Positions 5,914-31,250 of a DNA stretch of 64,000 bases are shown here, in pieces (within the stretch, counting starts at the first letter, position 1; every line of letters begins with the position of its first letter). This DNA is from Larus michahellis (taxonomy: Eukaryota; Chordata; Aves; Charadriiformes; Laridae), in assembly GCF_964199755.1 (NCBI RefSeq), contig NC_133897.1, positions 168,032,678 through 168,096,677 on the forward strand, given 5' to 3'. The notes below the pieces were generated by a model. That model had not been told where the DNA came from and ran no database searches. It saw only the letters and a list, made by a program, of their open reading frames with translations. A program made the position numbers and the translations under genes.

Positions 5914-6016
5914 TCAGAATTCAAAGTCCTCATCGGCCATGTCGATTGCCCAAGCAAACTTCTCCCTCTGTGTCTTGTTGTAGATCTTCTCGATGGGCAC
6001 ACCAAACTTCTTGCAC
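5914..6016 (-). CDS. TOP1MT: TOP1MT last coding exon
   Basis: 103 nt. The first base completes Trp from the previous exon. It encodes [18 protein letters not shown] through the terminal EDFEF and a TGA stop at 5914-5916. The acceptor TTTGTACAG precedes it on the minus strand. This is the C-terminal helical end of the type IB enzyme. Confidence 0.97.
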
Positions 6017-12000: not shown

Positions 12001-15000
12001 CCAGGGATGGGGGACCCGGGGGCTAGGGTAAGGCTACAGATACCTTATCGATGAAATAGAGGGCCACTGCTCTTTGCCGCTTCTTCATCTCCTTGGACTT
12101 CCAGTCGGCTCGGTACTGAGCACGGATTTTGTGGACAACATCCTTTAGGCGCCGGGCTACCTCATACTTCTGCCAGTCTTTCTCACCCTGAAAAGACAGG
12201 CTAAAACCCAGTGCCCCATCTTCCTTCCATCCCTACCAGTTAGATCCTGTTCTGGGAACACCCCTCCAGCATCTAAATACTGCTCAAACCCCATTGTTTT
12301 CTTGAGGAAAAAAAAATCCATGAAGTGGAAAAGTCAGAGCAGAAACAGCTCATCCAGGGTTTCTGTGCCCTCTGCTGGCTGTGCTCGACTTGGCCAGGAT
12401 CCCAGGTCTGAGCTGCTCACAGTCTGGTGGCGTCTTCCACCAGCTAGCAGCCAGGACACAGCAAGTGAGAAACCAAGTGGTCAAGCGCTGCATGGCCATG
12501 GCCACTGCTACTCAAGACACCACCAGCGTGGACTGACACAATGCACTTGCTCAATTGTGCCCAACTTCTATCCAGCGTCCTTATTTGTTTTGAGGACTAG
12601 AAATAGCTTTAAATCACCTTTCCCTCTCCAGAGGGTTCACTCCCTCCCTCCCATAGTACTACAGATGGTGATTCTACCTCCCCCTAACCCTATATTTACT
12701 GGCATAAATGAATTCAACCCCATAAACTCTGGTCCCTGTGGACCCTCTCAGCCCCTGCCAGGCTTTAAACACCCTTCCCTGGAAAGAACATGAGCAGCAC
12801 AGCACAGGGATGGCTCTGACAGTAACATTCCATCCCCCTGGAATAGGCTTGATACTTAACAATCACATCTTCTTGTCCCCTCACCACTCAATTGCGCACC
12901 AATTAATTTAGTTTACCCCCTTTTTTGGGGGGAGAAAACACAATTACATTTTTGTCGATGTGCCACATGTCTGCTTTCCCCTGATCTTTCCACCTGACAG
13001 AAAGCCCATGGCCCAACAGGCAACAGCTCTGCCTGAACAGCATCACTCCAACCTTCAGCTTGGAGCTGGGGTTCAGCATGATGTACTTCAAAGTGTTCTG
13101 GATGTTTTCTGTCCACGAGGCCAGCCAGGTAACCGTGTTGTCAAAGCGCACCTCCTTCCACTTGTGCCCTGCTGGAGGCTCAGGGATCTTAGAGTCCCTG
13201 TAGGCAGAGCACAGTTACAGCCCTCAGGCCATAAAGAAGAAAGAGGTCGTTGAACTCAACTGCTTCTTCAGAGTGAGACAAGGATGGTCACCACACTGCA
13301 GCATTACTTACAGAAAACATACAGCCCACCCAAAATTGCTCCACAACATGGCCAGGTCCTTATCATTTGGACGCTGGGGACAACAGCAGAACTTGCTGGG
13401 CTGGTGGGGAGTGCTTTGAATCAAGGCCACAAGGTCTTCACATGGGTGGTTTAAGACCAATGCAACTCATGTAACTTAAGAGGGCAAATGCTCTTAACCC
13501 AATCGCTACTTTTCCTCCCTCCAGTGAGTATCCTGATGTTTCCAGCCAGCACGAGGGAGCCATAAAATGAGGAGGAATGGCTTGTTTGGAAGAGGAGCAC
13601 AGGAGAAGGAGTAGAGAGTTGTCCCTTCTTCAAGTAGGCCATAGGAGTACTGCAGTATTTGCAGTGGATGTCAGGTGAACAGTGTGGGCACCAGTGAGAG
13701 ATGGAAGCTGCTGACCAGCTTCCTGACCACTGTACCTCCACAGAGAAACTAAAAGCCAGATCTAACTGCAAAACAGACATTTGAAGGCAACTAGAAGGTG
13801 ACAGAAGGGCTCCAGTGAAGTTGAGCCTCAGGGTGTGCAGATCAGTGACTGTAGGAGATAAAAGCCCACAGCAGCTCCAGGTAGAGGAGGTGTGCCATTC
13901 ACCCCAGTCCCAAAAGCAGCCCCACGAACTCAGCTCTTCTCAAGGCAACTCACTTGCTGCAGTTGATGATAACATCTTCCGGCATGATCCGCTTCTTCAG
14001 CATGCCCATCTTGGGGTGGTCACCACGGCCACGGAAAAGCCCCGGTGGCTCAGTTTTGAAGTTGCCTATCTTTTCACGGTGCCCATCAAGGATGCAGTAC
14101 CCATACTCTTCCTGGATCTTATCCGCCTCCTCCTTCAGTTTCTGAAACAAGCACCATTCCACAGGATAAAACCAAAACCCCATGACTCACACCTGCCTAT
14201 CACTACCCTCCTTTCCCTGGAGAAAGAAAGGCTGGAAAGGCAGAGCTCAAAGGATTGGAGGAATAGGTGAACATGGGTCCAAGCCCCCTCCCAACAAATG
14301 GCGCATCTCCACCCCCTTTGCAAACCCTCACAGTAACGCTGTCCCAGCATGATATGCTAATCAAACAAGCCTGTGTGCCACCAGCCCCTTAGCAAGGTCC
14401 ACTATCCTGTGGACAGGATGCCAAACCATGGTTCAAGGATGACTGGTACCCTGCAAAGCCATGAAACCTGCAGCATCTGCAAATAAACTTAATGAAGAGA
14501 GGTGTGATGGTCATGGAGACAGAGTTGGTCCAAAGAAGTCCTAGGTTAGGGCATAACACCAGGAAAGCAGACAAGTAGTAGCCAAAATACCCCAAGCTGG
14601 TTCCAAAACATATCAGCCAGTCCCAGATATCATTGGAAACAGTCTTCACCTGCTTCTCCTCTTTGGAGAGTGCCTTCCGTGCCTCACTTTTGTCCACAAA
14701 GTACTTGTGGATCTCCCTGAAGTCGCACTTGTCCAGGTCCTTGATTATCTTCTGCTCCTGTGAAGTCATCTCCTGAGCAAGAGATAAGAGGGGCTGGGTA
14801 AAGCCAGGAGGCAAAACCAACTCCACACAGAGCTGCTGCCTATCCCCCCCTTCCACAGAAAGGAAACGGAGACCCATATGCCAGTTCTTCAAAAAAAAAA
14901 AATCAGAAAGAAACTGCCACTCTCAGCTCTCCCAGCCACATCCACCCAAGGGCAGACAAAGCTGCCATGGCAGGAGGCCAGGTTGCCTCTGGACACCTGA

Positions 15001-18000
15001 GCCTGCACCCACAGAGAAGCAAAACGCAGCAAGTTCTCGGGTGGAGCAGCCTCTAACCTCTGCTGTGGAAACAAGCAGTCTGCAAGCATGACTACAAGCA
15101 GCCCGCGGAAGCAGCACTGAAGGTACCTGGGAGCACATAAACTTGCCCTAGTAGGGGTCTTGCTTTTATTTGGGGCCTGAGCTGTGGCGCTATGGGACTG
15201 CAAGGTTAATCCTTCAGAGGGACACATGCCCCAAAGTGTTTGTGAAGCTGTTTGCAAGACCCAGCACCTGCTTTTTAGTAGCATCACTAAACCTCAGAGG
15301 GAGCACAAGTGCCAATGAGAAGCCCTCAAGGATGCTGCAGACAGCAAGCCCCAGCCCAAACCCACAAGAAGCAAGGAAATAAATCATATCATTTAGAATC
15401 TCATAATCATAGGATTAAAAATAAAGAACTTAGCCGCAAAGAAACCCCATCCCTTCCATCCCACACCACAGCCTGGGGATGACAGGTTTAATGCTGAGCA
15501 TTTAATGCAGAGGATGGACAGCAAGGAATCCCTCACAGGGAAGGTACCTTCCTCCAGTCATTGAAGAAGTTGTTCTGGAAGATCTCCTTGGTCGTGTATT
15601 CATGATCGAGCATTTTAGCGTAGAAGGTGGCAACTTCTTCTGTGGCCAGGCTCAGCTTCAGGGGTTTGCCTAGGAAGAAATAGGACCTTTAGCATTGGTT
15701 ATGGGGGCAGCCCAACCCCACAGCCACAGACAGTTGTTCGGCGAGTACCCATGCTCACCACAGTACCAAAATAAGGACAAGGGGTGAGAACAGACACTGG
15801 CAAGATTTCAGCACCCCTCTGCACCAGGCACAACCTCATCTGCAGATCAATGCTCAGAGCACTTGACACAGCAGGATGCTACTGTGGCCCATTCGCAATC
15901 ACACACTTCATTTTCTTTTCCAGGAGAGTGGAAATCCTGATTTACGTTAAGGTCACTGAGACACAGGGCTTTCAGCAGCCACCATGCCGTGACAAGTCCC
16001 AAATAAATGGTTCCACAGGACAACACAGAAAGGTTTGCTTTCTGACCATGATCACTTCAGGACCACGCTGAATAGCCAGGACCCCACTCAGAGAGGTTTC
16101 ATCTCAAATGCTTTCCCATGCAGATGGAGCAATCGCGGGAAGCTCAAAGCTGAGATTTGTGCAACAGAGATGCGAGAGCCTCTCATGGTTGTCCAGTGGG
16201 TCTTGGATCATTCCTTGGAGGTAGCAAAGCCATCATCCTCTCCTGAGCTTTTTGGCTAGAGCAATGAAGTTCAGTAAAGCCAAGGAACAACTTGACTCTT
16301 CCTAGGAAACCGAGACTTTGAAATAGCTTTTCTAGGCACCCTGCAGGAAAAGCTCCCTGCAGAGCTCCAGGGGATGGTTCAATCCTGCCTGCACCAGGCA
16401 CTCTGTTTTTTGGGATTCCTGACTTCCACCTGAACTCCAGGGCACGGTGGGTCACAGCCTTATAGAATCATAGAATCTTCATGGTTGGAAAGGACCTTTG
16501 AGATCATCGAATCCAACCATACACACACACAAAAAAAAACCCCCTATGATCTCTGTCACTAGAGCATGGCCTGAAGTGCCACATCTAGATGTTTCTTAAA
16601 TACCTCTAGGGATGGTGACTCAACCACCTCCCTGGGCAGGCTGTGCCAGTGCCTGACCACTCTTTCAGTAAAGTCATTCTTCCTAATATCTAATCTAAAC
16701 CTCCCCTGATGCAACTTCAGACCATTTCCTCTGGTCCTGGAAGAAGGACCTGGGAGAAGAGGCCAACACCCACCTTTCTCCAACCTCCTTTCAGGTAGTT
16801 GTAGAGGGCAATGAGGTCTCCCCTCAGCCTCCTCTGAGGGGGAGCCCCATGACAGCCCCATGACAATCTGCATAGCAGTAGACATGTCTACATGACAATC
16901 TACATGCCCCATAGCAGCCCCATGACAATCTACATACACCAGCTCAGCTGTGGGCCCTTCCTACTCAGTCTTGTTGCCTGTCCACAACCACTTTTTTATC
17001 CAGGAATGGTGCCACCTTTTAGCAAACAAGCCAACATCACCCAAGATCCCAGGCCAAAGCCATCACCCCAAATGCACAGAACACATAGATGGGTCTCCAA
17101 CATCTCAGAGGGCAGACAGCAGGTCCAAATCCTCCTCATAGATGCAAAAAGTCTCTGACAGCCCCATCTATGTCCCAGCAGTGCCCTCTGGTGACAGCGT
17201 TGCCAGACACCTAATTTCTCAAATTGGCCTTTTTTTTTTTTTTTTACCTCCTGTAAAAACCCCACAAGGAATAGCAAGCCCCAGTGAGATGGCTGAGGAA
17301 GTCCAAGACCCCATGGGACTGAAGTCCCCTTTGATCTCCAGCATCCCTTGATCAAGTCCCAAGGTCCTTTTTGCCTCCTCCCCTTGTTCTGTCAGAGAAC
17401 AGTTCAGGGAGCGGGAAGAAAACAGCCCAGCAGGCACAGTGGGAAACCAAGGAGGACAACAGAGACCTGGATCTGTCCTGCCAATCTCTCAGCCCCTTCA
17501 CTGATGCACTGAGTTGCTGTAAGGCAATGCATGGTGGCCCTGGGGACAACATGGGAGGCTGTGACTGAGAGCTTGGAGTAATCCAGCAATGTCTTGGAGG
17601 GCAACTGATGTGTCAGTCACAGAGGCCATGGGACAAGCAAACTGCAGCTCTCAAAAGCAAAAATCGCATTTTTTCCAGTTTGCAGGGAAACCATGACCTA
17701 AAGCTCAAACCCAAAAAGGTATCTTAATGAGAAAATATTGGGGTTTTTTGTCTCCAGTCCATCTTTACAAGAGGTACACAAGGACTTTAGGCAACAACAT
17801 CATGATGCATTGCTTCCCCTCAAGAAACTCAGGGTCCAGCCCCACCACTGCATGTCCTGCAGCCAGGACAGGCTGCGAGAAGACGCGCAAGTCTCAGAAC
17901 CGCACATGGCTGCATTACAGCATCCCAAAACCAGCTGCAGGAACCCTCACCCTGTCTCAGGGTGCTCTGAGCGGAGGGGATGCATGAAGCACCCTGCAAC

Positions 18001-21000
18001 TGTCAGGGGCTCATTAGCTCCCCAATAACCCCATAATTCCTACCACTTGCAAAACCCTCCAGCTTTAACCCATGGTTCAGGCTTTTATACAGTGGGATAT
18101 TTAGGCCCTTTAATAATTTGTGTTCTGCAACACTTCCCCCTGCCCCATACAAGAGAAGATACTGTCTCTTTAGCTAGGCAGAGGACTCACACCCCAGGTC
18201 CCACCAAAAGGCAGACGTACCATCATAATAAAACTGCACATCATCAGGCAGCGGTTCGTAGAGGGGGGCAAAGTAGGGTCCTCTGTGCTCCAGTTGCGTC
18301 CACTTCACTCCATCTTCTTTCTTCTCCTCTTCCCACCTGGGACAGATGCACAGGGACCAGTGAGAGCAACCCCACCCAGGGGTCTGGGAGCTTCTCCCAG
18401 AGTCACACCAGGGAGATGCTCTGTGAGCAGCAAGGGTTGCCACAAAACCTGGGTGAAACCCTGTCGCCTCTGCTACTGCCTCAGTTTCCCCATGCTTTCA
18501 AAAAAGGAAGGCTGCAATGCAACCCAGGGAAAGGTATCTTGAGGAAGGGGACAGGCTCAGTGCAGTGACATGGGGAAACGCAGGGGGAGAGCCAAAGGAT
18601 GGAGGGGTCAGCCAAATCCACAGGGACAGAGACCCCACCGCTGAGCCACAAAGGTTGCTCAGTTCACACCAAAGAGGCTGCAAGGGCTAAAACACTCATC
18701 CCTTCCCTCCCTAGACCTCACTGCATTTTTTTATTTTTTTTTTTTAAAAAAAAACACACAAAAAAGCTCCAGAGGAGAAGCTCACACCAACATTTGTAGC
18801 TAGGAGACCACCACGCCACACTATTTATACCTATGATCTTAATGCAAATAAAATCTTAAAGCACCTCTCCTCCCTGCAGAGGAATTAGGATTTTAAAGTC
18901 ACCACAAGCCTTAGCTGAGAAATGATGGTTTAAAAAAAAAATAATAAAGAGGGGGAAAAGAGAATGAAACCACACACCCTTAAGAGCAGAGGAATAACAT
19001 TTAAGAAAGATAACCCAGACCAGGGGTTGGAGAAGCGATTGCTGATGGCAGTGCATGGGACCGGCAAGGGATCTGCACCCTGCGGCTCAGCACCAGCCAG
19101 GCAGACACTTGCTCTTTAACCCCAACATCACCGGGAAAGCAAGGATTGCTGGGAAAACACAGCAAGATTTCACGCCAGGGAAGGAAAAACCGCCGTGTTT
19201 CTCACTCAGCGGCGCCCCGGAAGTATTTCATACCTCTCTCCGCTGCATGGGAAGCGGGGTGGAATAAATCAATTGCATCAAAAGGTGCATTGTGCCAAGA
19301 AAACACGGCAGGGGGCAGGGAAAAGATATTAAAGAAAAAAAAATAATCAGAAAGCTACAGAAAACTTGGCTGAAAGCATCTCAGAGACAGGCAGCTGGGA
19401 GGGTGATTTGTGGGATGCTGTAAGAGCTCCGATTCTCCTCCCAAACCCACGCGATCCCCCATCCCAGCAGAGCATCACCCACACTCACCTACTGCAGACC
19501 CCTGAACCTGGACGGAGGCAAAGTGGGGTGAGACGGGGTGGACGGACCCCACGGCCGAGAAACGAGGAGGCAAGATGCCGGTACATGCCACCGACCACCC
19601 AAAGAGACTGCAAGGCTGGTGGTGGATGCCCAGGTCACCCCCAGCATCCTGCCCTGGCACCTCACTACCCACTGAGGCATGGTGGTGGTGGTGCCCAAGG
19701 CATCGCCATGACGAGCCACCACTTTTGTTCAAGGAGTCCAGGTTGTGGCACTTCCCCACGTGCCAAGGCAGCACAGCCTTATGGGAAATGTAGTCCTGCA
19801 CATGTTTCAGGGCAAAATTGCTACAAATCGAGCTGATGCTACCTACCGGCCTCTTGCCTCCAAGCCAGGCTCCAGCCCCCCAAACAAGGCATTACTTAGC
19901 AAAAAAGTCACAGAGTCCCACTTTTCCTGCCGCCCTGTGCCCCACAAAATCTGTCCTAAAGGCCCAGGCACCCATGGGCATCCCTGTCTGGGATAACACT
20001 GTAGCAGCTCCCCACCGCCCAGGTTTGCCATGCACTCCAAAGCATCCAGCCCCCTAAATGCTCCTTCTCTGCCCCATATATTGGGGTGCTCTGGGAGACA
20101 GTGACACCAAGTGGCTAAAGCCACCACTGTCTGCCACCTTAAAATTTAAAAATACAGCATCCATCAGACTTGCTCATACACTCTTTCCCAATGCTCTGCT
20201 ACCAAAAAGCTTGCCTGGATCATCCAAAAACTGCCACAAAGGGAAAAAAATAAAATAAATTACAGCTCCTTTATACCCTTCACAAGTCCCTGATATGGCT
20301 CCTGCTGTCTTGGAAGCTGTTTTATCACAGGGGGTTGTGGAGATCATCTCCTTCCACCAGCCACAAGCATCTCCCGTCCCTGGGCACCAGCAGAGCCATT
20401 TCAGGAGGAATATATATTGTATATTCTGTTATAAGAATTAAAAAAAAATATGTACTAATATTATTTTGTATTCAGGACCTCCCCTTATCTCTCACCCACT
20501 TTCTCCTGCCAAGAGTGCTGAGTTCAAGGCCTAAGAAAAATACAGCAGAGCAGTTAGAACTAGTAATAAAAAGGGAATTTTCACAGTTTCACCCTAAAAA
20601 ATAAAACTAAAACCCCAATTGCATCAGTGTTAGACCTGCCCACAGGCCAACGCAACACAGGACACTTACCATTTCCACTTGTTTTCTGCCTCTTTCTTTT
20701 CTTCCTCTTTCTCCTCCTTTTTAGCTCTTTTGTTGTTCTTTTCTTCTCCTTCTTCCTTAGATTTCCTTTTACGGGTTTTCCCTGGGGCCTTCTCTTCACT
20801 CTTTTCCCCCTGCTCTTTATTTTCCTCCTTTGTTTTTTTCTCCTTGATTTTCTGTTTTTTCGCTTTCCCTGGCACATCTCCCTTCCCTGCCTCATACTCC
20901 TCCATCTCCTGTCCAACCTCCGTGCTCTGGCTCTCTGCCCATCCTTCACCCCCTTTCTCATCCACCTCCTCTTCCTCCTCCTTTACTCTTTTTCCATCTT

Positions 21001-24000
21001 CACTTCCCTTTCTCGGCCCATGTCCCTCCTCCAGTCCCTCTCTCACTCCTTTCTCTCTTTCCTTATCGGTCTTCTCCAGCGCTTGATCCTCTTCAAACAT
21101 TTTTTCCTTCTTTGTTTTCTTCCCCACTTTCTCCACCCCCTCTGTTTTCACCTTCTTTTGTGTCTCTGCTTTCCCCTTCTCCTGCTTTTGCTTCCTATCA
21201 CCCCGTCCCTGGGTGCTGCTGCTCCCTTGCTTGGCTCTGCCCTGTCCCCTTGCCCAACTCCTGCTCCCATTAGCACCCTCCTCCTCCTCGATGCCCTCCA
21301 TCACATCCCTGGGGCTTCCGTCAAACTCATCCTTCTTGCTCACTCTTTTTCTCAGAGATCCCTTTTCCTGCTGCTTCCCCTGCCCTTGCTTCTTCTCTCT
21401 TTCTTTTTTCCCTTTTGAGTTTCGGGCATCCCCTTCCTGCTGCGGGACAGTGGGGTCCAGCTCCTTCTCCTCATCCTCCCTCATAGCAGTGACCCCCACA
21501 CCCATCTCCAAAGCCCCAGGCTCTTCAGAGAAGGATGGAGCCCCACCAGTAACACCATCATTTGGCTTTGGGACCTGTGGGAAGAAGCCAGAAGGGAAGA
21601 AAGGTTGAAGCTGGGAAAGAAGAGTGATTATCCCAAAGCCCAGGTGCATGGAAGAGGTGCTCAGGGATGTTCCCCATACAGGACTGTGTCTGGGGGGGTG
21701 ATGGTCCCCCTGTCTTTCCTACCCTAACTCCAGCCTTGGTTGCTGAGAGCTGCCATCCTCCTGTGGGTCTCGCTCTCCGAGGTTTGCGCTGTGACCTACA
21801 GAAAAAGCACAGCCATTTCTCACCACATTAGTGAGCAGCAGCCTTAATCTCTTACAGCCAAAATTAGGGGATTGCTCTCAAACAAGCCCTCGTTTCCCTT
21901 TGAGCACAGGAGCACCTTGGGTTCTGCGGCAAATGGAGATATCCCAAAGCAGCAGTGACTGGCCCCCATAGGAACAGGATGGTCCCAGGTTGCAGCTTAC
22001 AGGATGAGGAAGCTCAAATGAGCAGGACTGCAAGGTCCTCCCAAGGAAATGTCCCCAGAGACACCTCTGATCAGAGAAGGGGACAGGTTTGGAACGTTTG
22101 GCAGCACCAACAGAAAGCAGGACAGAGATGGTATCAGGCTGAGCATTGTGGACACACTGGAGGAGAAGACCTTGTGACAGAACACCTCTCCTTGGACTAC
22201 AGGGACAGTCTCCCCCAGTCCCTTCCCAAGAAGGCAGCCTGAGCATCGGTACAACAGGGAAGGACACAGCCTTAACAATGCAACGAGCTGCAGGATCACG
22301 AGCATCTGTATCCATGACCTCCACCATCAGAAATATGGGTGGGGAATGCAGGAATGTTTCCCTGGTCAGCAAAGCGGTCAGGTGAATTTGGGGGATTTCT
22401 GTGGGACTTGCAAACATTACACAGCACTGACCTGCCCCTATAAAATACTTTCTCCCAAACCTTCTCCAAGCCAAACAGAGAGTTGAGAACCTCCTCTTTG
22501 AGTTGCTTATGTTCCAGAAAAGCAAAGCAAGAGATTAACAAGGGATTAGCAAGCACAGCCTAAAACCAAGCCAGATCAAGCCTACATCTACATAGAGTTG
22601 AGGTGAAACTTGTGGCTGTCCCTGTTGGGTCATGGCCATCTCTCAACCAAGTGAAATGCCCGCCAGGCTGCAGAGCATCACACCCCCAGCTTGTGATCAG
22701 CACCACCACAGAAAAACCCAACTTATCCAGGCCAGCAGGTCAGGGCAACCACAGCCACATTCCTCCAGCCCATGCCAGGCAAGCTTGGAGCTGAGCTCAA
22801 GGCCCTTGGCACCAGCCCATGGGTCAGACCCATTGCATGCCTTTCCCCTGCTCCTGGCACCCCTCAGCAGGGCCACTTTGGAAGCATGGCCAGCTGCCCG
22901 ATGCCACCCAGGGAGGTGTTGGTAAGCCAGGTTTCTCCATCCGAGGAGGGTGGTGACAGCTCTCCTGCACATCCAGGTGAGCACAAAGAGAGAAGAGCCA
23001 CAATTTCTGCTTTTAGCCAAAACATCCTGTAGACATAGTTTCTGCAAGGGAAAGGGAGATTTTTGGCCCTTTTCTAACAGATCATTTAGGGCTGATACTA
23101 AATTACCAGGCTGTGGGACATCAGAGTGACACAGGGCTCAAGAAAGCCTTCAAGCCTGCTTGGGATGGGGACAACAAGTTCTCATAAAAAATAGGGGCTG
23201 GATGGTTTTTCCACACAGCCGGAACACACATTACACAATCTCCACTAAACTCATTAGGGCAAGCAACTCGGCAAAATACGCTCAGCCCTTCCAATCTCAT
23301 TAACAGCCAAGCAGATTCATGACTCAGAAGGCAAAGTCCTACCACCTCTTTGGGATCGGCTCCTTCCCCAAAAGGTCTTATTAGAGGCCTCTCACCGGAC
23401 ATGAAAGCCCCTGCCTCTAAGAGGATTAGCCTGCTATGGGACAAATTTACAAATTCAGCTTCATATCTCTGCCCAGATCTAGCATGGGGTGAGAGAAAGA
23501 AACACCCTTTTCCCAGGCTTTGCGAGGCTGGTTGTCCCCACTAGCATTTCCCCACCGCCTACCTCTGTATTTATGTAGGTATGTGCATCTGAGCAATCGC
23601 ACCCTGCTGACTCGAGCATCCTTGGGGAGGTTGGATGGGGCCAGGAGCCTCCCTCTCCACCCTCAAATCCCAGGATGGAGCCTCAAATTCCATTTGTGAT
23701 GTTTTTGGCAAGCTTTAAGATCACTGAAGGTACCAGGACATGGCAAGCTCCCCAGTGAAGGCATCAGCAGCAGGGTGGTCTCAGTGATACAGGAGGGAAA
23801 ACCAAGGCCGTGCAACTCCATGGCAAGAAGAAAAAGGGCAAATTTCCACTTCTCTGGGCAAAAACCATTCAAAAAGTAGCCCAACTTACCTTGAAGAGTC
23901 TTTCAGCCCCACTGATGGCCCTTGGTGGAGGGTTGATTCAGTCTGAAAGATATTAGCAGTGTTGATCTGGGAGAAGTTAGCTGGCATGGGTACCCCAACA

Positions 24001-26279
24001 GCAGCATCGTCCCCAAGCAGCCATCCAGCCCCTGTGATTGCAGCCACCCGGGCCACAGTACCCATGTCCTATTGACATTACCTTGCCCATCCTCAGCCAC
24101 CTTGGCTAGAAACCAGGGGCCCAAAATGGCAGGCTTTTCCAAGCACGAGGAGAGCTTTGAGGTTTTATGGGGTTGGGAAATCCCTGTCTTACTTCCAACA
24201 ACACCGAATAGGTATTTTATAAAGCAAATACATGAAAACTATCACCCCTCCTCATCCACCTGCTCACTATATGTGTCGCTGCTATCAGGGACAGCAGCCC
24301 AGAACAGCAGACGGGACAGGAGGACTCCAAAACAAAGACGCATCAAATGACAGCTTATGTACATCCACGCCAACTTGGTCCTTAGAAGATTAAATGACCC
24401 TTGTAGCAGATGGCAAGGGGGAGAGAGAGGTGGGGGGGACAAGCCACAGGGTGGGAAATACAACAGGGGTGAACAGAGGGCAAGGAGAAAGAAAATCAGA
24501 GCATAGGGAAAACAGGGACAGAACGTAGAAGAAAACGAGCTTAGAGGGCACTCAGAGCCCTAAGAGCTGACCCGTGGTGGCCACCAAAAATATTATCACA
24601 CTGCATGCTTGTTTTCAAAGCTGAAGCCAGGTTCTTCTGCTCCTGGCTGAGCAAGGCTATGTCTAACCACACAGGGCACTGAAACCCCATCCCAGCTTCA
24701 CCTGATGCTTGCCAAGCATTGAGGCTCTCGTTATAAATTCTGACTTCCCCAAGTTTCTCTTTCAAAGGCTTTCAAGGGAGGCCAAAACCACACAGGGCTT
24801 TTTCTTGAAAGCTGCTGCTGAGAAGCTGCTGGGTTAACTCATTAAAGGTGGGGGGGAGGCAAAAAACAAAACCTTGAGTTAATTATAGGTTGGTAATGGC
24901 AATATACACTTTCGTTCCCTGGGAATACGCCTGCTCTCATATTCACAATCCTTCAGCCACTGTCAGAAATCAGGTTGGTAAATTCAAGAGCAGCCAGCCA
25001 CGACCTTCCAAAAAAAAAAAATAAATTCCTGCATGCAAATGCCTGGCACTCGCACCAGGAACACCGACAACACCAGGACACCAACCACAGGCAGCCTTGG
25101 GGGGGTTTCAAGGCTGCAGCTCTGATCGCATCCATCCAGGAGAGTTTGCTGCCATTTCAGACACTGCAGGAGGAGGGGTGGAGACTCATCGTGGGGAAGG
25201 GAAAAAGCATCTCTGCTGGTTTTACACACCAAGACGACAAGTGCAATTAAATTAATGTGGGCAAAGCAAAATGTAGGGGGAATCAGCCAGGATTCCCAGC
25301 ATCATCACAAGATCAGGGAATGATCTTCTTGGGATGCGCAGGGAAGACCAAATGCCTCAGAATGGGACACCATCAGGATGAGATCAATCCCAACATCGTG
25401 CTTGAGAAGTGACGGAGTCACCCACGTCCTGGTGCTCCCCATTTGTGCCAGTTCATGCTCTTGGTCCAACACCAAAATGTGACGGATTCAACCCTGATGC
25501 CACATGCATCTGAGCTTCTGGCAATTTATTCCTTAATTTAATTCAAGGTGCTCAAGGGATCCCTTTTAGGGGCTTGCACACAACCACAAGTTACAGGACA
25601 CCATCCTCACAGCTCCCTTGAGAGGAAACCACATGAGTGCTCCTTAGTCTTTCGTTGCAGAGACCACCACGTACCAACCCAGATGCATCTCCTTCCTCTG
25701 CTTGGATCCCATCCTGCAGGCTTAAGCCGGGACCTTTCCCTTCTGCAGCCTCTTGCTTTAGAGAGCTTCTTGGCCAAAAAGGAAGGAGAGAAAGAACACA
25801 AGTTTTTCCCAATTAAAATACTTTTTTTTTTTTAATAATCAAAGCAGCCCAAGGATAGCAGAGTTGGACACAACACTTCCATGCACAACTGGGGAACCCA
25901 GCATAGGGGGGCACAAAGCCCCAGTGATCCTCCCTGGTTGCCACCATCAACCCCCCCATCCAGCCAAGAGTTACCTGCTGATGATGTTTTCCTGCAGCGG
26001 CTTCTCCTTGACGTTTGGCGATTTCTTCTTCTTCCCTTTTACTGCAGGGGGCTGCATGACAGGACAGAACAGTGTAACAAAAAAGGAAGATCATTCACTG
26101 GGTTTGAAGTCCACAAAACACTGGGGACAGTCACACGGGTGACCCCAATGCCTGGGCATGGCAAGGGCTTGTCTGGTACCTGCACGAAGCATGGCATTTC
26201 CTCCAGATCCTTCTTCACAGCCTTTCTCCTGGGTGCCTTTGATATCTCCTGCCCCTTCCCCGACTCGATCTTTCGCTTC
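5914..26279 (-). CDS. TOP1MT: DNA topoisomerase I, mitochondrial (5' end not resolved)
   Basis: Type IB topoisomerase, which nicks one strand, forms a 3'-phosphotyrosyl link and relaxes supercoils; the family member TOP1MT acts on mitochondrial DNA. The spliced frame joins 5914-6016, 6433-6582, 7512-7606, 8363-8490, 9454-9568, 10656-10724, 11338-11523, 12044-12187, 13053-13197, 13954-14141, 14650-14772, 15548-15669, 18221-18336, 20670-21574, 21729-21795, 25975-26051 and 26180-26279 (read from high to low). All junction phases agree, giving 943 codons plus stop and still lacking the first exon. Catalytic motifs present: CSLRVEHI (Arg), KVFRTYNAS (Arg), LCNHQR (His) and SKLNYLDPR (active-site Tyr, codon 6459-6461). 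It is TOP1MT rather than TOP1 because of residues such as [17 protein letters not shown] and the terminal EDFEF, and because RHPN1 is next door. The oddity is a long Lys/Glu-rich N-terminus in place of a short targeting exon. Confidence 0.93.
6433..6582 (-). CDS. TOP1MT: TOP1MT exon with the active-site tyrosine
   Basis: 150 nt between acceptor CCCTCAG and donor GTAAGT. It encodes the second half of the coiled-coil linker ([14 protein letters not shown]), then [20 protein letters not shown] with the nucleophilic Tyr at 6459-6461, ending [15 protein letters not shown] matches TOP1MT; nuclear TOP1 has RITVAW. Confidence 0.97.
7512..7606 (-). CDS. TOP1MT: TOP1MT linker exon
   Basis: 95 nt, acceptor TTCCCAG and donor GTGAGT. 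It encodes the first half of the linker coiled coil, beginning [15 protein letters not shown] and rich in Lys, Glu and Ala. In this family the linker forms two antiparallel helices that brake DNA rotation. Confidence 0.96.
8363..8490 (-). CDS. TOP1MT: TOP1MT core exon with catalytic histidine
   Basis: 128 nt, acceptor TTTCCAG and donor GTGAGA. It encodes [19 protein letters not shown], then ILCNHQR with the His that stabilises the transition state in the family, and ends [11 protein letters not shown]. Confidence 0.97.
8791..9275 (+). repeat. CR1 LINE 3' fragment, interrupted by a second CR1
   Basis: A sense CR1 3' end runs 8791-9042 and resumes at 9200-9275, ending in the CR1-type ATTATTCTATG tail. 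The break falls within the usual stretch where 'gtctagttgaa' continues into 'gatgtccc'; compare the intact copy near 48160. The interrupting piece is annotated separately. It lies in a TOP1MT intron, opposite to that gene. Confidence 0.85.
9043..9199 (-). repeat. CR1 LINE fragment nested inside another CR1
   Basis: Starts with the reversed CR1 tail (CATCATAGAATGG) and continues as antisense CR1 to about 9199, where the outer element resumes. About 157 bp. Confidence 0.82.
9454..9568 (-). CDS. TOP1MT: TOP1MT core exon with second catalytic arginine
   Basis: 115 nt, acceptor CTTCCTCCAG and donor GTGAGT. It encodes [20 protein letters not shown] followed by [18 protein letters not shown]. The Arg of KVFRTYNAS is one of the invariant catalytic residues. 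Confidence 0.97.
10656..10724 (-). CDS. TOP1MT: TOP1MT core exon
   Basis: 69 nt, exactly 23 codons, acceptor TTCTTTAG and donor GTGAGT. It encodes [20 protein letters not shown] and RLN. Both boundaries are phase 0. Confidence 0.96.
11338..11523 (-). CDS. TOP1MT: TOP1MT core exon with first catalytic arginine
   Basis: 186 nt, 62 codons, acceptor CTCCTTCCAG and donor GTAAGT. It begins [27 protein letters not shown] carries the catalytic Arg. It ends [14 protein letters not shown]. Confidence 0.97.
12044..12187 (-). CDS. TOP1MT: TOP1MT core exon
   Basis: 144 nt, 48 codons, acceptor CTTTTCAG and donor GTATCT. It begins [14 protein letters not shown] and ends [15 protein letters not shown], a strongly conserved core-domain segment. 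Confidence 0.97.
13053..13197 (-). CDS. TOP1MT: TOP1MT core exon
   Basis: 145 nt, acceptor CTGCCTACAG and donor GTTGGA. It begins [16 protein letters not shown], a TOP1MT-type sequence (nuclear TOP1 has DAKVPSPPPGH), and ends [11 protein letters not shown]. Confidence 0.96.
13954..14141 (-). CDS. TOP1MT: TOP1MT core exon (DNA-binding cap)
   Basis: 188 nt, acceptor TTGTTTCAG and donor GTGAGT. It begins [18 protein letters not shown] and contains [18 protein letters not shown], ending [11 protein letters not shown]. Confidence 0.97.
14650..14772 (-). CDS. TOP1MT: TOP1MT core exon
   Basis: 123 nt, 41 codons, acceptor CTTGCTCAG and donor GTGAAG. It encodes [18 protein letters not shown] to [12 protein letters not shown]. 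Confidence 0.96.
15548..15669 (-). CDS. TOP1MT: TOP1MT core exon
   Basis: 122 nt, acceptor TTTCTTCCTAG and donor GTACCT. It contains [19 protein letters not shown] and ends FFNDWRK, the conserved cap region. Confidence 0.96.
16462..16838 (-). repeat. CR1 LINE 3' fragment
   Basis: Antisense CR1: begins TATAGAATCATAGAATC and continues through CR1 3' UTR into coding-like remnant near 16830. It contains a short CA and A-rich interruption at 16521-16541. It lies in the intron between the TOP1MT exons at 15669 and 18221, in the same orientation as the gene. Confidence 0.85.
16843..16940. repeat. Short tandem duplication next to CR1
   Basis: Copies of a unit like GCCCCATGACAATCTACAT recur about four times, partly truncated, directly abutting the CR1 end. 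Probably local slippage. Confidence 0.6.
18221..18336 (-). CDS. TOP1MT: TOP1MT first core-domain exon
   Basis: 116 nt, acceptor CTGTCCCAG and donor GTACGT. It encodes [19 protein letters not shown] and then [13 protein letters not shown]. This exon and the next twelve correspond to the 13 exons that TOP1 and TOP1MT share in vertebrates. Confidence 0.96.
20670..21574 (-). CDS. TOP1MT: TOP1MT giant Lys/Glu-rich N-terminal exon
   Basis: 905 nt with acceptor TTCTTCCCACAG and donor GTAAGT, open throughout in the frame that continues into the core (ending AENKWKW, then WEEE). It codes for about 301 residues. The first 70 or so are acidic and mixed; the rest is dominated by Lys and Glu runs with basic NLS-like clusters such as KTRKRKSKE and NNKRAKKE. 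The plus strand is therefore a long pyrimidine-rich tract. The composition resembles the N-terminal domain of nuclear TOP1. Mammalian TOP1MT has only a short targeting exon at this position. It is not a chance open frame: the in-frame junction to KWKWWEEE, a motif of nuclear TOP1, and two good splice sites argue for use. Confidence 0.85.
21729..21795 (-). CDS. TOP1MT: Probable small basic exon of TOP1MT
   Basis: 67 nt, acceptor TTTTCTGTAG. It encodes [20 protein letters not shown] and AG; the first G completes an Arg codon with either upstream cassette. The donor is GTTAGG (weak), or GTAGGA if the exon starts at 21723; both keep phase 0 into the large exon. The support is frame and phase consistency and basic content, not recognised homology. 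Confidence 0.5.
23890..23942 (-). CDS. TOP1MT: Candidate alternative exon of TOP1MT
   Basis: 53 nt between a good acceptor (ATCTTTCAG) and a consensus donor (GTAAGT). Read from phase 0 it gives [17 protein letters not shown] and then AG of an Arg codon. Its length is 2 mod 3, like the 25975-26051 exon, so it can replace that exon but not follow it: inclusion of both creates a stop. It could also be a chance pair of splice sites. Confidence 0.3.
25975..26051 (-). CDS. TOP1MT: Probable Lys-rich N-terminal exon of TOP1MT
   Basis: 77 nt, acceptor CTGTCATGCAG and donor GTAACT. It encodes [20 protein letters not shown] and ENIIS plus two bases of Arg. The Lys-rich character fits the N-terminal domain, and the phases fit both neighbouring exons. 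The assignment is inferred from frame and composition. Confidence 0.5.
26180..26279 (-). CDS. TOP1MT: Probable basic N-terminal exon of TOP1MT
   Basis: 100 nt, acceptor CTTGTCCCCAG and donor GTACCA. It encodes [20 protein letters not shown], then [13 protein letters not shown]. It needs two bases from an upstream exon, so it is not the first exon. The clusters KRK and PRRKAVKK look like nuclear localisation signals. It is the furthest upstream exon I can support. Confidence 0.5.
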
Positions 26280-29200
26280 CTGGGGACAAGAGAGAATTCA
26301 GCCCACTGAGGCCAAGCAGGCAGCAAACCCCTTGGTGGTGGGAAAAGCCATGGTATGATGCCACACTACCTAACCCTGGGGTCCATCAGGACTGAAAAAA
26401 GGCTCCCAAAAGGAAATTTGGATGGATTTCCCTTCTGGCCACTTTAGGGCTGAGCTGCCCAACAGAGCCAGCTACAGCAAGCATGATAACATAATGCTGG
26501 AGGCCTCCCCAAAGTCCCCTGTCATGCTTCACAGTACCCACCTGCTACTAGTCTTTGCCCCACTGGCTCTTGAGACCCCCATGGCTCTGTCATCCACCAG
26601 CTCTTCGAGACGTGACACGGGGTTAATGCAGCGTCCCCAGGGATAGTCACTGTGACAAGATGGGGACAGTGTGTGGTTGGTAGCACCCCACTTTTGCTCT
26701 CAGAGGGAACCCCAACAGATGCTCACCCCACAGCTCAACCCTAAAATTTGCAGCTACTCACAGTGTCAAGTAGAACATCAAATGGAAAAGCCTGAGCTGC
26801 TGTTGGAGATGGTAAAAATTAAATTGCTGCTAAAATAAAAGCAAAGCCCTTCCCAATAACATAGGGATTCACAGCTCCATGTAAGTAGATGGGGGTTGGA
26901 TTTACACCCTCAGAACAGCCCAGGATATGCAGCAAGTATTATCTAGGCCCTAATCACACCACGGCAATGGAAAATAATAATTAAAAAAAAATACCACAAC
27001 AAAGGAACAAGAGCAAAATTAAGATATTGACTCTCCCCAGCAAAGCAGGCAGCTGGGCCACCATCACCCAGCTATTATCTCTCTTCTCCTTCTCATAGCT
27101 GGAGCAGCCAGAACCACCCCCACCCCCAAAAATAAATTAAAAAAAAAAAAATCAATCACAATTACCCCCAGAAACTCAAGGCCTCAGAGAGTGCAAGAAA
27201 CAAAGTACATATTCAAACAATGCCAAGGTGCTCCCCACCCATGAAGAGCCTTTACCATTGAGGAAAAAAGGAGAATTCTCAAGGAGAGAAGGTGAAGCTA
27301 CAGAACACCATGAGACATCCTGCAAACTTTTCAAGGTATAGAAAACACGTTGAAAACCTCCATATTTTACCAGCCTCTGCTGAGCCACGAGCACTCACTG
27401 CTACTGGTGGGACCACGCTCACTCAGCGCAGCAAGACATGCTTCCTCAAAGCCACCCAGGCTGCAGAAGACCCCACCCCTCACCCAACTAACTCCCTAAT
27501 GACAATGCCCCCCTACAGGAAGCTTATTTAAAGACTCCCTCAGCCCTGATTGGAAACTCCCAGCTCAAGATGCACACTGGGAAATGAAGTTTTAGCCCAA
27601 AAGGTGAATTTGAGGAGGACCCCTAACCAGCACCTCCTTGGCAAGGAGACCTCCTAGGGGCAGAACGCTTTGCACGACTCAGATGGAGCTAAACACATTG
27701 GTATAAAAACAGTGTAGAAAAATCTCCCTTGCCAGGAGACAGCCCCCCTGCAATTAAATAATTAAATTAGTCCCAAACCCCAGCCTTTCTCAGCTGCCTC
27801 TTACCCATCAGAGACCCACGGTTGGATTTGCAGAGGTCTCTGAGCCTAGACACTGGGTATAGAGCCCAGCTCCTGCAAAGTACAGCATGCTGTGACCCAC
27901 AACCCTCATCCTGAAGTCCTCACCCATCCCATTCCTCTCCAGGCCTCTTCATGCAGGTGGGTCTATTGCTTTCACCTGCCCACGTTGCCATCAACCACCT
28001 CATCACAGCTGAGCCTCAAAACCATCTCAACCATCCTCAAGCTGCTGCAAGCTACTGGGAATGGGCTGGTGCAAAGGGGTTTCACGAAGCATGGAGAAAC
28101 ATGAGCTTTCCTCAAAAACGCTGGGTTTTGAGGCAAAAAAAGGTGTTGAGATCCATGGTGAGTAGCGGGGTCATGCGTTCCCCTGGGAAGATGCCACCCG
28201 GTTCGCGGCTCGGAGCGGAAACCCCTGGAGACAGGGCTGGCTCCGGGAAAGCCTCTTTGATCCCTGTTGCGCCACCCGGGGAAAAAACATCCAAGCCACC
28301 TTTCTTGCTGGATGAGTAAAAGTCGTCAAGGGATGGGAGCCAGCCCCAGGGCAGGGAGCAGGAAAGGACGACTTCATGCCGGGGCTTGTTCGCTCTCGGC
28401 CACCTTCCACCAACTGGCATATATTTAATTTTCTTCCATTTTCACCTTGGGTCCCGTATAGATTTATTCAGCCCTAATGCATGCTGAAGGTTTCTCCCAA
28501 GCTCTCCACGCCAGTTGGGATGCCCAACGATGGGGTTTGCAGGGTGGGTGAGCTGGGAGAAACCTGTCCCAACCTATACCAGCACCAGTTTGCCGATACA
28601 TCCTGCCCAAGCACAACCTGGGTTAAATACCTTAATAATTAAGATGAATTTTGTATATTTTAATGTATTTTTTCCCTTTGCAGATACTCTTCTCTATGGA
28701 GGAGATGGGAGCAGGATGGGTCCAACCAGGGCTCTGCGGTGGGGAAACTTGGACCACAAAGTGGGTCTGGCTCATCCTTGGGGAAAACCAGACTGCAAAT
28801 GGGGTCCCTGCACGGTTCGGTGACACCGTGGCGAGACGTTGAGGGCGGTGTCAGTGACAATATCCCACGAGCTGTTGATGGCAATCAGGTCCCTCACCAG
28901 CAGAGGAATAACTACCTTGTCCTACGTGCTCCCTGATGCGCAGACGTTTGCGGCCACATGATTAAAAGCATTTTTCTTTGCAAACCACTGCGATATTCAC
29001 CCAAAAAAGCATTGCCGCCATTCCAGATAAAACAGTAACTCCACCTTTCCAGTCCAGCATCTCCTTTCGGATCGGGAAAACCAAAAGGAAGAGAAAAATC
29101 CATACCAACATACTACCTTCCCTGGAATCGCGCAACCCTTGAAGCCCCCAACAAGGAAAAACAGGCTGGGAAAGGTGGAAATGGTTTAATATATTCAGTA

Positions 29201-29960
29201 ATAAAATAAATTCAGGCACTATAAAAGGTTTAATTTATGCCGGGCTAATTTTGTTTTTCCCCTTGTTAAACAGCTGAATCTGCATGGTGTTCCCCGTGCC
29301 CCATTGACGTGAACAGGATTCATCATGCATAAGCGCGGTCTCATTAACTTCATTAGAGAAAAGAAGCCAGGTCCTGGTAAAGACTAAAGGAAGTTTTTCC
29401 TGGTGACACGCGCCGGTGACAACCCAGCTCAGCATCCCCACGTAGGGTCCCACGTGCATCTCGGGAACCGGATTTTTCCAGCCCCCAGAATAAAATTTTG
29501 CCAGCTTTAATGTCGTTGCCCCGTCCAACTGTTATTTTATGAGTGTGATTGAATGTAAAACCCTGCCGTGGCTCAAAACTGTGGCTCAGGAAGGGGAAAA
29601 TGGGGTAGGATTTGCCTTTATCTGGCTGGAAAAAGTAGGAAAATAGGATTTATTTTATTTATTTCTTTATTTTTCTATTATATTTTGTGTTTTGTAGAGG
29701 GCTTTACAGAAGCAACATCTAATGGTTATAGCAGGGCAAGCAGGTTCCAGATGTTGCAGAATCGCTCCAGCAGCTGTGTGAGCTGCAGTGGCACCATCCA
29801 GGTGTTGAGGGATATTTTTTTTTTGGGGGGGGGGGGGAGGGAAGTGAGGGGGGTGATCTGGGGGCCACACAGAGGGGAGCAGCCGGGGCACAGCGTTGGG
29901 GTGGAAAACAGCTGGACCTGACTGAAGGGTGGGCGCAGGGTGGGTGCTGCCTTATTGCAA
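26280..29960. other. Upstream region of TOP1MT; first exon not located
   Basis: TOP1MT must have at least one more 5' exon ending in phase 2. Several short minus-strand ATG-plus-donor candidates fit the phase (ATG at 26776-26778, in CTTCCTCAAAGC-adjacent sequence near 27438, and near 28955), but none has recognisable sequence. A CpG-richer patch lies near 28170-28400. I see no other gene and no clear interspersed repeat here. Confidence 0.4.
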
Positions 29961-29970
29961 CCCCGCCACC

Positions 29971-30170
29971 TGCCACAGCAGCCCAGATGTTGCGGGGGGG
30001 TGGGGGTTATAAGGGGCTGAAGTGGGGGTGCGAGAGCCCAGATGTGGCCGGGGGGCGCCTGGTTAGAGGTGGGGTCGCCCAGCTGTGGCTGTGGGCGGAG
30101 CGGACGCGCATCCAGATGTGGTTGCGGGGGGGGGGGGAGCGCGCGCCCAGCTGTGGCCGTGGGAGGGGCC
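29971..30170. repeat. G-rich degenerate tandem repeat with CAGATGTGG core
   Basis: The core CCCAG(A/C)TGTGGC followed by a G run recurs about five times: near 29971, 30038, 30079, 30112 and 30148, at 33-67 bp spacing. Several cores are E-box-like (CAGATG or CAGCTG). It lies at the upstream edge of the CpG-rich promoter. Confidence 0.6.
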
Positions 30171-30197
30171 CCCCCCGCGAGGCCCCTCCCCATCCCG

Positions 30198-30204
30198 TGA
30201 CGTC
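30198..30204 (+). promoter_or_regulatory. CRE-like site TGACGTC
   Basis: TGACGTC within CCGTGACGTCCTC, seven of eight bases of the palindromic CREB/ATF site, at the edge of the CpG island. Confidence 0.4.
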
Positions 30205-30302
30205 CTCGGCGTTCTAATTCCCACCGTTGCCACGGGCGACGGCCCCTCCGCCCCGCCCCTCCCCAAGCCGCTCCCGCCCTCTCCCCTCCCTCTCCCGCAC
30301 TT

Positions 30303-30309
30303 CCATTGG
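30303..30309 (-). promoter_or_regulatory. CCAAT box (NF-Y type), first of a pair
   Basis: CCATTGG on the plus strand, CCAATGG on the minus strand. A second copy lies 42 bp downstream, a spacing of about four helical turns. Confidence 0.5.
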
Positions 30310-30344
30310 GCAGCGCCGCCGCCGATCTTCGCCATCCCCTTCTC

Positions 30345-30351
30345 CCATTGG
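30345..30351 (-). promoter_or_regulatory. CCAAT box (NF-Y type), second of a pair
   Basis: CCATTGG, same orientation as the copy at 30303-30309. It is followed by GC boxes just upstream of the presumed RHPN1 start. Confidence 0.5.
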
Positions 30352-30389
30352 TCTCAACCTCTCTCCGCCCCGCCCCGCCGCCCTGCTTA

Positions 30390-30461
30390 TGCCGGGACCA
30401 GCGCCGTGATCGCTCCTGCTCGGCGGCGCCCAGCGGCGGGGCCGTGCGGGGGCACTGAGGG
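30390..30461 (+). other. RHPN1: Candidate noncoding first exon of RHPN1
   Basis: Downstream of the CCAAT and GC boxes, the sequence reaches a consensus donor (GTGAGT) at 30462. The exon start is not determined. It contains only a tiny open frame from ATG at about 30389 to TGA, so it would be 5' UTR. There is no transcript support. Confidence 0.35.
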
Positions 30462-30559
30462 GTGAGTGGGGGGCTGTCGGCTCCCGCGGGAGGGAAGGAA
30501 ACGGGGCCTGAGTCACCCGTAGCGAGGGGGGGAGAGAGAGATTTGCGGAGCTGTGGGGT

Positions 30560-31250
30560 TTTCCCCCGGGCATCTCTGGAAGTGAGTTTGGGGGGGTTGG
30601 GCCCCCCCCCAGCTGAGGTAACTCTGTGAGGGGCGGGGGGGGACTGGGAGAATTTGTGTCGTTTACCCTTGCCCCCGGCTGAGGTAACTCTGTGGGGTTT
30701 GTGTCCCTTCTCCCCATTTGGGGTAGCTCTGTAAAGGTGGGGGTCTGTGGGACTTTGTGTGTGTGTGTGTCCCAGCTGGGGTAGCTCTGTGAGGGGGTAC
30801 TGTGGGGGTTTGTGTCCTCCCCCCTCCTATCTGGGATAGCTCTGTAGAAGGGGTCTGTGGGTGTTTGCCCCCCCCCCCCCCCCCATTTAGGGTAGCTTTG
30901 CAAGGGAAGGGGGGGTCTGAGGTAGGTCTTGCAAGGGGGGCTGTGGGAGTTTGTGTGTTCCCCCCCATTTGAGGTAGCTCTGCAAAGCGGGGGGGTTGTT
31001 TGTGGGGTTTGCCCCCTCCCCCCTACCCATCTGGGACATCCCTGCAAGGGGGTCTTTAGGGTTTGCCCCCAGCTCGGTTGGGGCATCACTTCAAGGGTGT
31101 CTGTGGGGTCCCCCCCCCCCCTTCCCCTGGGGTAGCTCTGTAAAGGGGGTTTGGGGATTTGCCCCCCCCCAACCCAGCTGGGGCAGCTCTGCGAGGCAGG
31201 TGTCTGTGTCCCCTGCCCCAGCTGGGGTAGCTCTGGAAGGGGAGAAGCAG
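30560..31250. repeat. G-rich degenerate minisatellite
   Basis: About 13 diverged units of roughly 40-65 bp, each with a GGGTAGCTCTGTRAGGG-like core, then a G run, GTCTGTGGG, TTTGTGTC and a C-rich segment. Cores are at about 30617, 30682, 30721, 30779, 30834, 30889, 30971, 31130, 31181 and 31224, with weaker ones between. It lies between the CpG promoter and the first coding exon of RHPN1. Confidence 0.75.

Follow-up and report, generated by a model that had tools for sequence, protein, structure and literature searches.

Does the TOP1MT gene of a bird encode the short enzyme that is expected of it, or does it also carry an N-terminal domain of the nuclear TOP1 type? In the available parts of PMC10081982, PMC6514783 and PMC2790464, TOP1MT is treated as a short, mitochondrial protein, and the second of these describes it as exclusively mitochondrial. 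The gene analysed here lies on the minus strand of a 64,000-nucleotide stretch of contig 2 (the window, meaning the whole stretch of DNA that was analysed), and the genome searched comprises 1.405 Gb.

Two type IB topoisomerase loci were found in this genome, the gene of the window on contig 2 and nuclear TOP1 on contig 16 (a contig of 17.7 Mb); among the matches listed (the best candidates scored), eight were to PF01028, four on each of these contigs. Because canonical TOP1 sits on contig 16, the gene of the window is assigned as the other paralogue, the bird TOP1MT. It has the Topoisom_I_N and Topoisom_I domains of a type IB DNA topoisomerase (PF02919, 334.8 bits, and PF01028, 334.5 bits, in a Pfam search with the first 844 of the 959 residues of the predicted long protein described below). 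The catalytic R, K, R, H and Y are also present, with the equivalents of R488, K532, R590, H632 and Y723 all kept (5 of 5) in an alignment to 1a31. None of the 13 PDB sequences in the alignment is named TOP1MT. This second paralogue beside nuclear TOP1 has the terminal 13 exons in common with it:

18221 to 18336, minus strand: first core exon, common to TOP1 and TOP1MT
15669-15548, 14772-14650, 14141-13954, 13197-13053, 12187-12044 and 11523-11338, minus strand: core, linker and C-terminal exons, in-frame chain
10724-10656, 9568-9454, 8490-8363, 7606-7512, 6582-6433 and 6016-5917, minus strand: core, linker and C-terminal exons, continued, in-frame chain

The 12 exons after the first core exon together span 5917 to 15669 on the minus strand, and the chain of 13 core exons ends in a C-terminus, ..DEDFEF, that is followed at once by TGA. 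The 13-exon motif is reportedly due to Zhang et al. in 2004.

Upstream of this core stands the exon that sets the gene apart:

20670 to 21574, minus strand: 905-nt charged exon of 301 codons plus 2 nt, ending ..AENKWK/W, defined by splice sites, open reading frame, periodicity and the TOP1 junction

It joins exon 18336-18221 in phase 2. On a simple consensus score, its acceptor (cttcccacag/GTCCC at 21574) reaches 6.5 and its donor (AAATG/gtaagtg at 20670) 6.7, compared with 4.2 and 3.6 for the next core exon. The frame that joins the core contains 0 stops, against 7 and 19 in the other frames, and none of the Markov copies of the exon's composition was open (0/4000 for order 1, 0/4000 for order 2). 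Codon-position periodicity was likewise strong (chi2 64.8, null maxima 22.6 and 24.9, reached by 0/1000 simulations per order). Being open, periodic and bounded by strong splice sites, the exon is therefore very probably coding, unless it was recently abandoned; the feature is real and well defined, and very probably functional. The earlier note had described an exon joined in frame to the TOP1MT core by good splice sites and encoding about 301 residues. Both statements hold: the splice sites are good, the frame has no stop, the junction is in phase 2, and the 301 codons plus 2 nt specify an E/K/G-rich sequence.

The make-up of the 905-nt exon is of low complexity, E/K/G-rich. Its tandem content is limited to two weak 15-bp stretches, each with about 2 copies, and it is now neither an array nor a simple repeat. 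It is single-copy, since a DNA search of the 1.405-Gb genome returned the exon itself as the sole match. The same search thus yielded no retrocopy that could serve as proof of a spliced transcript, and the four genome matches to the small-exon peptide were every one the gene's own exons. Searches of bacterial/archaeal and viral contigs for relatives of the exon gave 592 and 179 pattern stretches, respectively, with 0 confirmed.

The strongest evidence for where the predicted N-terminal domain comes from is a junction, with its phase, that is shared with nuclear TOP1. In the nuclear TOP1 of the same genome, the last N-terminal junction reads ...EEEQKWKW/WEEERYPEG in phase 2, and the W/W junction of the window gene splits the equivalent codon at the identical base. 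The gene thus has the nuclear TOP1-type arrangement, with a last N-terminal exon that ends KWKW/W, in phase 2, before the core. The human TOP1 PDB chain aligns through ..KKPKKEEEQKWKWWEEER, from some twenty residues upstream of the tryptophans, and the junction of the window gene aligns with the Trp203/205/206 region of the human protein (numbering counted back from a chain end of 765). According to PMC10081982, TOP1 has 21 exons and TOP1MT 14, of which the last 13 are in common. By this count the 905-nt exon corresponds to exon 8 of TOP1, which has 98 nt, and has expanded to about nine times that length.

The available part of PMC9094055 reports that residues 191-206 of human TOP1 are needed for DNA binding and that Trp205 contacts Gly437. 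In the alignment, the equivalents of Trp205 and Gly437 are both kept in the window gene. It is very probable that TOP1MT has kept the coding sequence of a TOP1-type N-terminal domain here. To our knowledge, human TOP1MT is without the KWKWW motif, only one of its tryptophans being present. The proposal that an ancestral domain was kept here and lost by mammals appears the best account of its origin, because there is a second type IB locus in the genome and the long exon matches its TOP1 in tryptophan motif, intron position and phase.

To define the rest of the N-terminus, upstream exons were searched in 21.6-30.9 kb (acceptor score at least 2, donor score at least 0), which gave 51 exon-and-frame candidates. 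The exons of interest, with one possible alternative, are:

26542 to 26649, minus strand: most upstream exon found, with an in-frame ATG at 26582, in-frame chain
26180 to 26279, minus strand: small basic exon of 100 nt, phase 2 in and 0 out, weak donor (0.1), in-frame chain
25975 to 26051, minus strand: small basic exon of 77 nt, phase 0 in and 2 out, in-frame chain
21723 to 21795, minus strand: small basic exon of 73 nt, phase 2 in and 0 out, in-frame chain
23890 to 23942, minus strand: possible alternative exon of 53 nt, phase 0 in and 2 out, donor 8.7 and acceptor 1.1

Read in succession, exons 26649-26542, 26279-26180, 26051-25975 and 21795-21723 keep the frame and lead on to the 905-nt exon. 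The ATG at 26582 has a good context (GCCATGG), and exon 26649-26542 is likely the first exon, or the second behind a non-coding one. For exons 26279, 26051 and 21795, no other listed open frame is as rich in K/R as the one that fits, the K/R fractions being 0.30, 0.28 and 0.29 versus 0.15, 0.20 and 0.09. These results revise the earlier picture of up to three small basic exons in several respects. The exons do chain in frame, but four were found and one had been missed; the edges were nearly right, with 26279-26180 in place of an end at 26179 and 26051-25975 in place of 26053-25976; and the span 20670-26279 took in the 905-nt exon but left out the likely start exon 26649-26542. The length of about 950 residues that had been predicted for the long protein compares with the 959 counted here from ATG 26582.

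The intron phases of the chain, 2,0,2,0,2, match TOP1's 2,0,2,2,0,2 if one symmetric exon is taken out. Of the 81 series that are possible once the last phase is fixed, 4 would fit such a one-phase removal, so the series lends mild support to a TOP1-type exon layout. Similarity to the TOP1 N-terminus, exon by exon, is weak (30 pairs), except in the 3' tail of the 905-nt exon. For the six best pairs, 1, 6, 8, 10, 13 and 27 of 500 shuffles did as well, and in just two of them (6/500 and 10/500) do the paired exons correspond. No exon resembling TOP1 exon 6 was found in the 4.2-kb intron 25974-21796 at an acceptor score of at least 1 and a donor score of at least 2. The exon-like stretch 23942-23890, with its near-perfect donor and weak acceptor, was rejected as an extra exon after 26051-25975, where it breaks the frame. 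It fits as a replacement for 26051-25975 only, so that the two could be mutually exclusive exons, and the set of small exons may vary.

The predicted long protein has 959 residues, 399 in the N-terminus and 560 in the core. The N-terminus is basic and hydrophilic (pI 9.56, GRAVY -1.73), and its start is NLS-like, not targeting-like. The NLS-like basic clusters claimed earlier are borne out by K-K/R-X-K/R motifs at 8 places and one bipartite-type match, with the qualification that composition alone favours such motifs. A long, hydrophilic N-terminus with basic clusters is again a feature of the nuclear TOP1 type; its disorder is weakly supported, as a charge-hydropathy plot calls the N-terminus disordered but calls the core disordered too.

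Further upstream, two landmarks are present:

28100 to 30600, no strand: CpG-raised stretch and CpG island between TOP1MT and a divergent BRO1-domain gene, from CpG counts
51984 to 53210, plus strand: BRO1-domain exons of the divergent neighbour, a synteny marker (three matches, two over the Pfam cut-off)

The CpG island occupies 30.0-30.6 kb and the second CpG-raised stretch 28100-29600. Minus-strand intron sequence shows an excess of T over A across 18.35-28 kb; the skew all but vanishes at 28-29.9 kb and changes sign at 29.9-31 kb. This pattern suggests that transcription diverges from the CpG-rich region at 28-30.6 kb, with a minus-strand start at 28-30 kb, and 28100-30600 is likely the region where the long form starts. 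At a donor score of at least 3, the search for a coding first exon ahead of 26649 yielded nothing save five implausible readings near 28 kb, and a coding first exon in the CpG island was rejected on account of weak donors only. The only minus-strand donor scoring at least 4 in 26.65-30.7 kb is at 28898.

The BRO1 domain of the neighbour occurs in several genes; the neighbour may be RHPN1. In human, RHPN1 adjoins TOP1MT in divergent orientation. The intervening region also contains a plus-strand donor, GAGGG/GTGAGT, at 30461, and degenerate repeats of the type 'agctaccccagctggg' at 30517-31090 (minus strand), proline-rich in translation, within which a 55-bp tandem array of 1.9 copies occupies 30776-30879.

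A possible second 5' end lies within the intron that separates the 905-nt exon from the core:

19489 to 19586, minus strand: candidate alternative first coding exon with a targeting-type N-terminus, donor TAG/gtgagt, phase 2 to 18336
19782 to 19794, minus strand: exact M4 motif ACTAYRNNNCCCR, ZNF143/THAP11-type, from a motif scan of the window

The earlier note mentioned neither a mammal-like short first exon nor a promoter motif in this intron. Exon 19586-19489 would begin with an acid-free, Arg-containing N-terminus, and its donor TAG/GTGAGT scores 6.5. It was the sole hit of the first criteria in 18.36-32.5 kb. These looser criteria gave 21 MTS-like exons in 248 kb of strands, about 1 per 12 kb by chance, so that the exon alone is not significant. 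Under stricter criteria, set after the hit had been seen, it is unique in 248 kb, and 0/60 simulated regions contained one. The predicted short product of 593 residues is close in length to human TOP1MT with its 601 aa, of which the N-terminal domain makes up 49 aa (PMC10081982). In amphipathic moment, the short N-terminus does not stand out from its shuffles (453/1000).

The ATGs upstream of this exon speak against it. From ATG 19680 (context ACCACCATGC) and ATG 19647, another frame runs to a TAG stop at the donor, and ATGs 19709 and 19703 begin a short upstream frame; they would impede initiation at ATG 19586 unless the transcript begins below 19647. An inner exon read from ATG 19680 or 19647 to a donor at 19493 was not adopted, because that donor scores 0.03 and acid-free ORFs of at least 50 codons are not rare (11 in 248 kb).

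No other exact M4 motif occurs in the window; this one is on the strand of the candidate exon, about 200 bp upstream of it. Shuffled windows contained a mean of 0.34 such motifs, and at least one in 30/100, so the motif alone is no rarity; for the 250 bp upstream of the candidate exon, we calculate a chance of about 0.0007. M4 peaks at -89 from start sites according to the available part of PMC5006282. A local cluster of 26 CpG surrounds the candidate exon (19100-19899). This count was reached by 6/292 windows starting at 1-29.1 kb, of which two are this cluster and four lie at 28.1-28.8 kb, and by 43/632 across the whole window. Taken together, the short first exon is moderately supported. 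A second, poorer ZNF143-like match, with 3 mismatches, lies at 27572-27590 (minus strand), about 0.9 kb upstream of exon 26649.

The reading that we somewhat favour is a single gene with two starts, in which the TOP1-type N-terminus is kept and both a long nuclear and a short mitochondrial form are made. In its first part, a long transcript would start in the CpG-rich 28-30.6 kb region and yield the 959-residue enzyme, whose mobile basic N-terminus, with its NLS-like clusters, would by analogy with TOP1 direct it to the nucleus or nucleolus; the tryptophan anchor would, again as in TOP1, tighten DNA binding and control rotation. More tentatively, a second start in the intron, marked by the M4 motif, the CpG cluster and exon 19586-19489, might give a 593-residue mitochondrial form. 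If real, the short transcript would swap the long N-terminus for a cleavable targeting peptide, and the promoter used might decide the destination.

The inner start is where this account could be simplified. If the short exon is a chance occurrence, the long exons would be the sole 5' end and one 959-residue TOP1MT would serve the nucleus and mitochondria, or the nucleus only. The long chain, well supported by its open frame, chaining and alignment, agrees with this, as do the lack of significance of the short exon by the first criteria and the unfavourable upstream ATGs. A precedent may exist in the single TOP1 of non-vertebrate animals, which seems to be shared between compartments (in the available part of the review PMC6514783). 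The M4 motif and CpG cluster, however, adjoin a strong in-phase donor, and the long N-terminus begins with an NLS-like rather than a targeting-like sequence, which leaves a sole long form rather unlikely. The opposite simplification, in which the functional TOP1MT is the short mitochondrial form and the long exons upstream survive as a relic, rarely or never used, appears much less probable still. It would agree with the presence of a candidate promoter motif and exon immediately upstream of the core and with the 49-residue N-terminal domain of human TOP1MT (PMC10081982), but a relic is not expected to retain 301 open, periodic codons flanked by strong splice sites, and 0/4000 simulated copies stayed open at each of the two orders.

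A further explanation concerns the 905-nt exon itself, and is compatible with any of the other readings. The exon may be coding and yet consist of purine-rich DNA expanded by slippage, mostly a lineage-specific neutral filler from the ancestral NLS to the core. The length of TOP1's matching exon, 98 nt, and the low-complexity, E/K/G-rich make-up would suit such an expansion, whereas the exon is not a simple repeat now and its only tandem stretches are the two weak 15-bp ones; we regard this explanation as a possibility that falls short of being probable. The one-gene, two-start reading can be taken further, to nested promoters at bird TOP1MT that drive a long nuclear or nucleolar enzyme and a short mitochondrial one, with mammals having kept the inner promoter alone. 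We regard this extension as possible, though less likely than not.

Compared with known systems, the bird gene resembles vertebrate TOP1MT in its 13-exon core, its catalytic residues and, possibly, a short first exon next to the core (a predicted short form of 593 residues versus 601 aa in human TOP1MT). It differs in having five more coding exons predicted upstream, which place about 399 residues before the core, and in the KWKWW motif. With nuclear TOP1 (765 aa in human, N-terminal domain 1-214) it shares a charged, hydrophilic N-terminus spread over several small exons, NLS-like clusters and a last N-terminal exon that ends KWKW at the same intron position and phase. Unlike nuclear TOP1, it has an exon of 905 nt in place of 98 nt and the core of the other paralogue, and it is E/K/G-rich, whereas this genome's TOP1, on contig 16, is K/H/D-rich in its earlier N-terminal exons.

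The arrangement also recalls TOP3A, for which an alternative start codon gives a mitochondrial form (in the available part of PMC6514783). As with TOP3A, one gene would serve two destinations set by its 5' end, but in the bird gene the switch would be a promoter and first exon, and in TOP1MT. Relocalisation via a changed N-terminal targeting sequence is described in the available part of PMC2790464. No long TOP1MT form is described in the main text of PMC10081982, and titles and abstract openings on TOP1 and TOP1MT make no mention of a long avian TOP1MT; public gene models may already show the long form. The bird gene is best seen as a variant of TOP1MT in which a nuclear-type N-terminus has been retained and expanded.

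If that domain was kept, it would date the specialisation of the family: the duplicate would first have kept the nuclear domain, and mitochondrial exclusivity would have come later, at least in mammals. With a long nuclear form, camptothecins might have a second nuclear target in avian cells, and a pair of isoforms sharing one core would provide a natural test of the N-terminal tryptophan anchor. Should the nested-promoter reading be true, vertebrate TOP1MT would have begun as a dual-destination gene, and birds would have two nuclear TOP1 enzymes.
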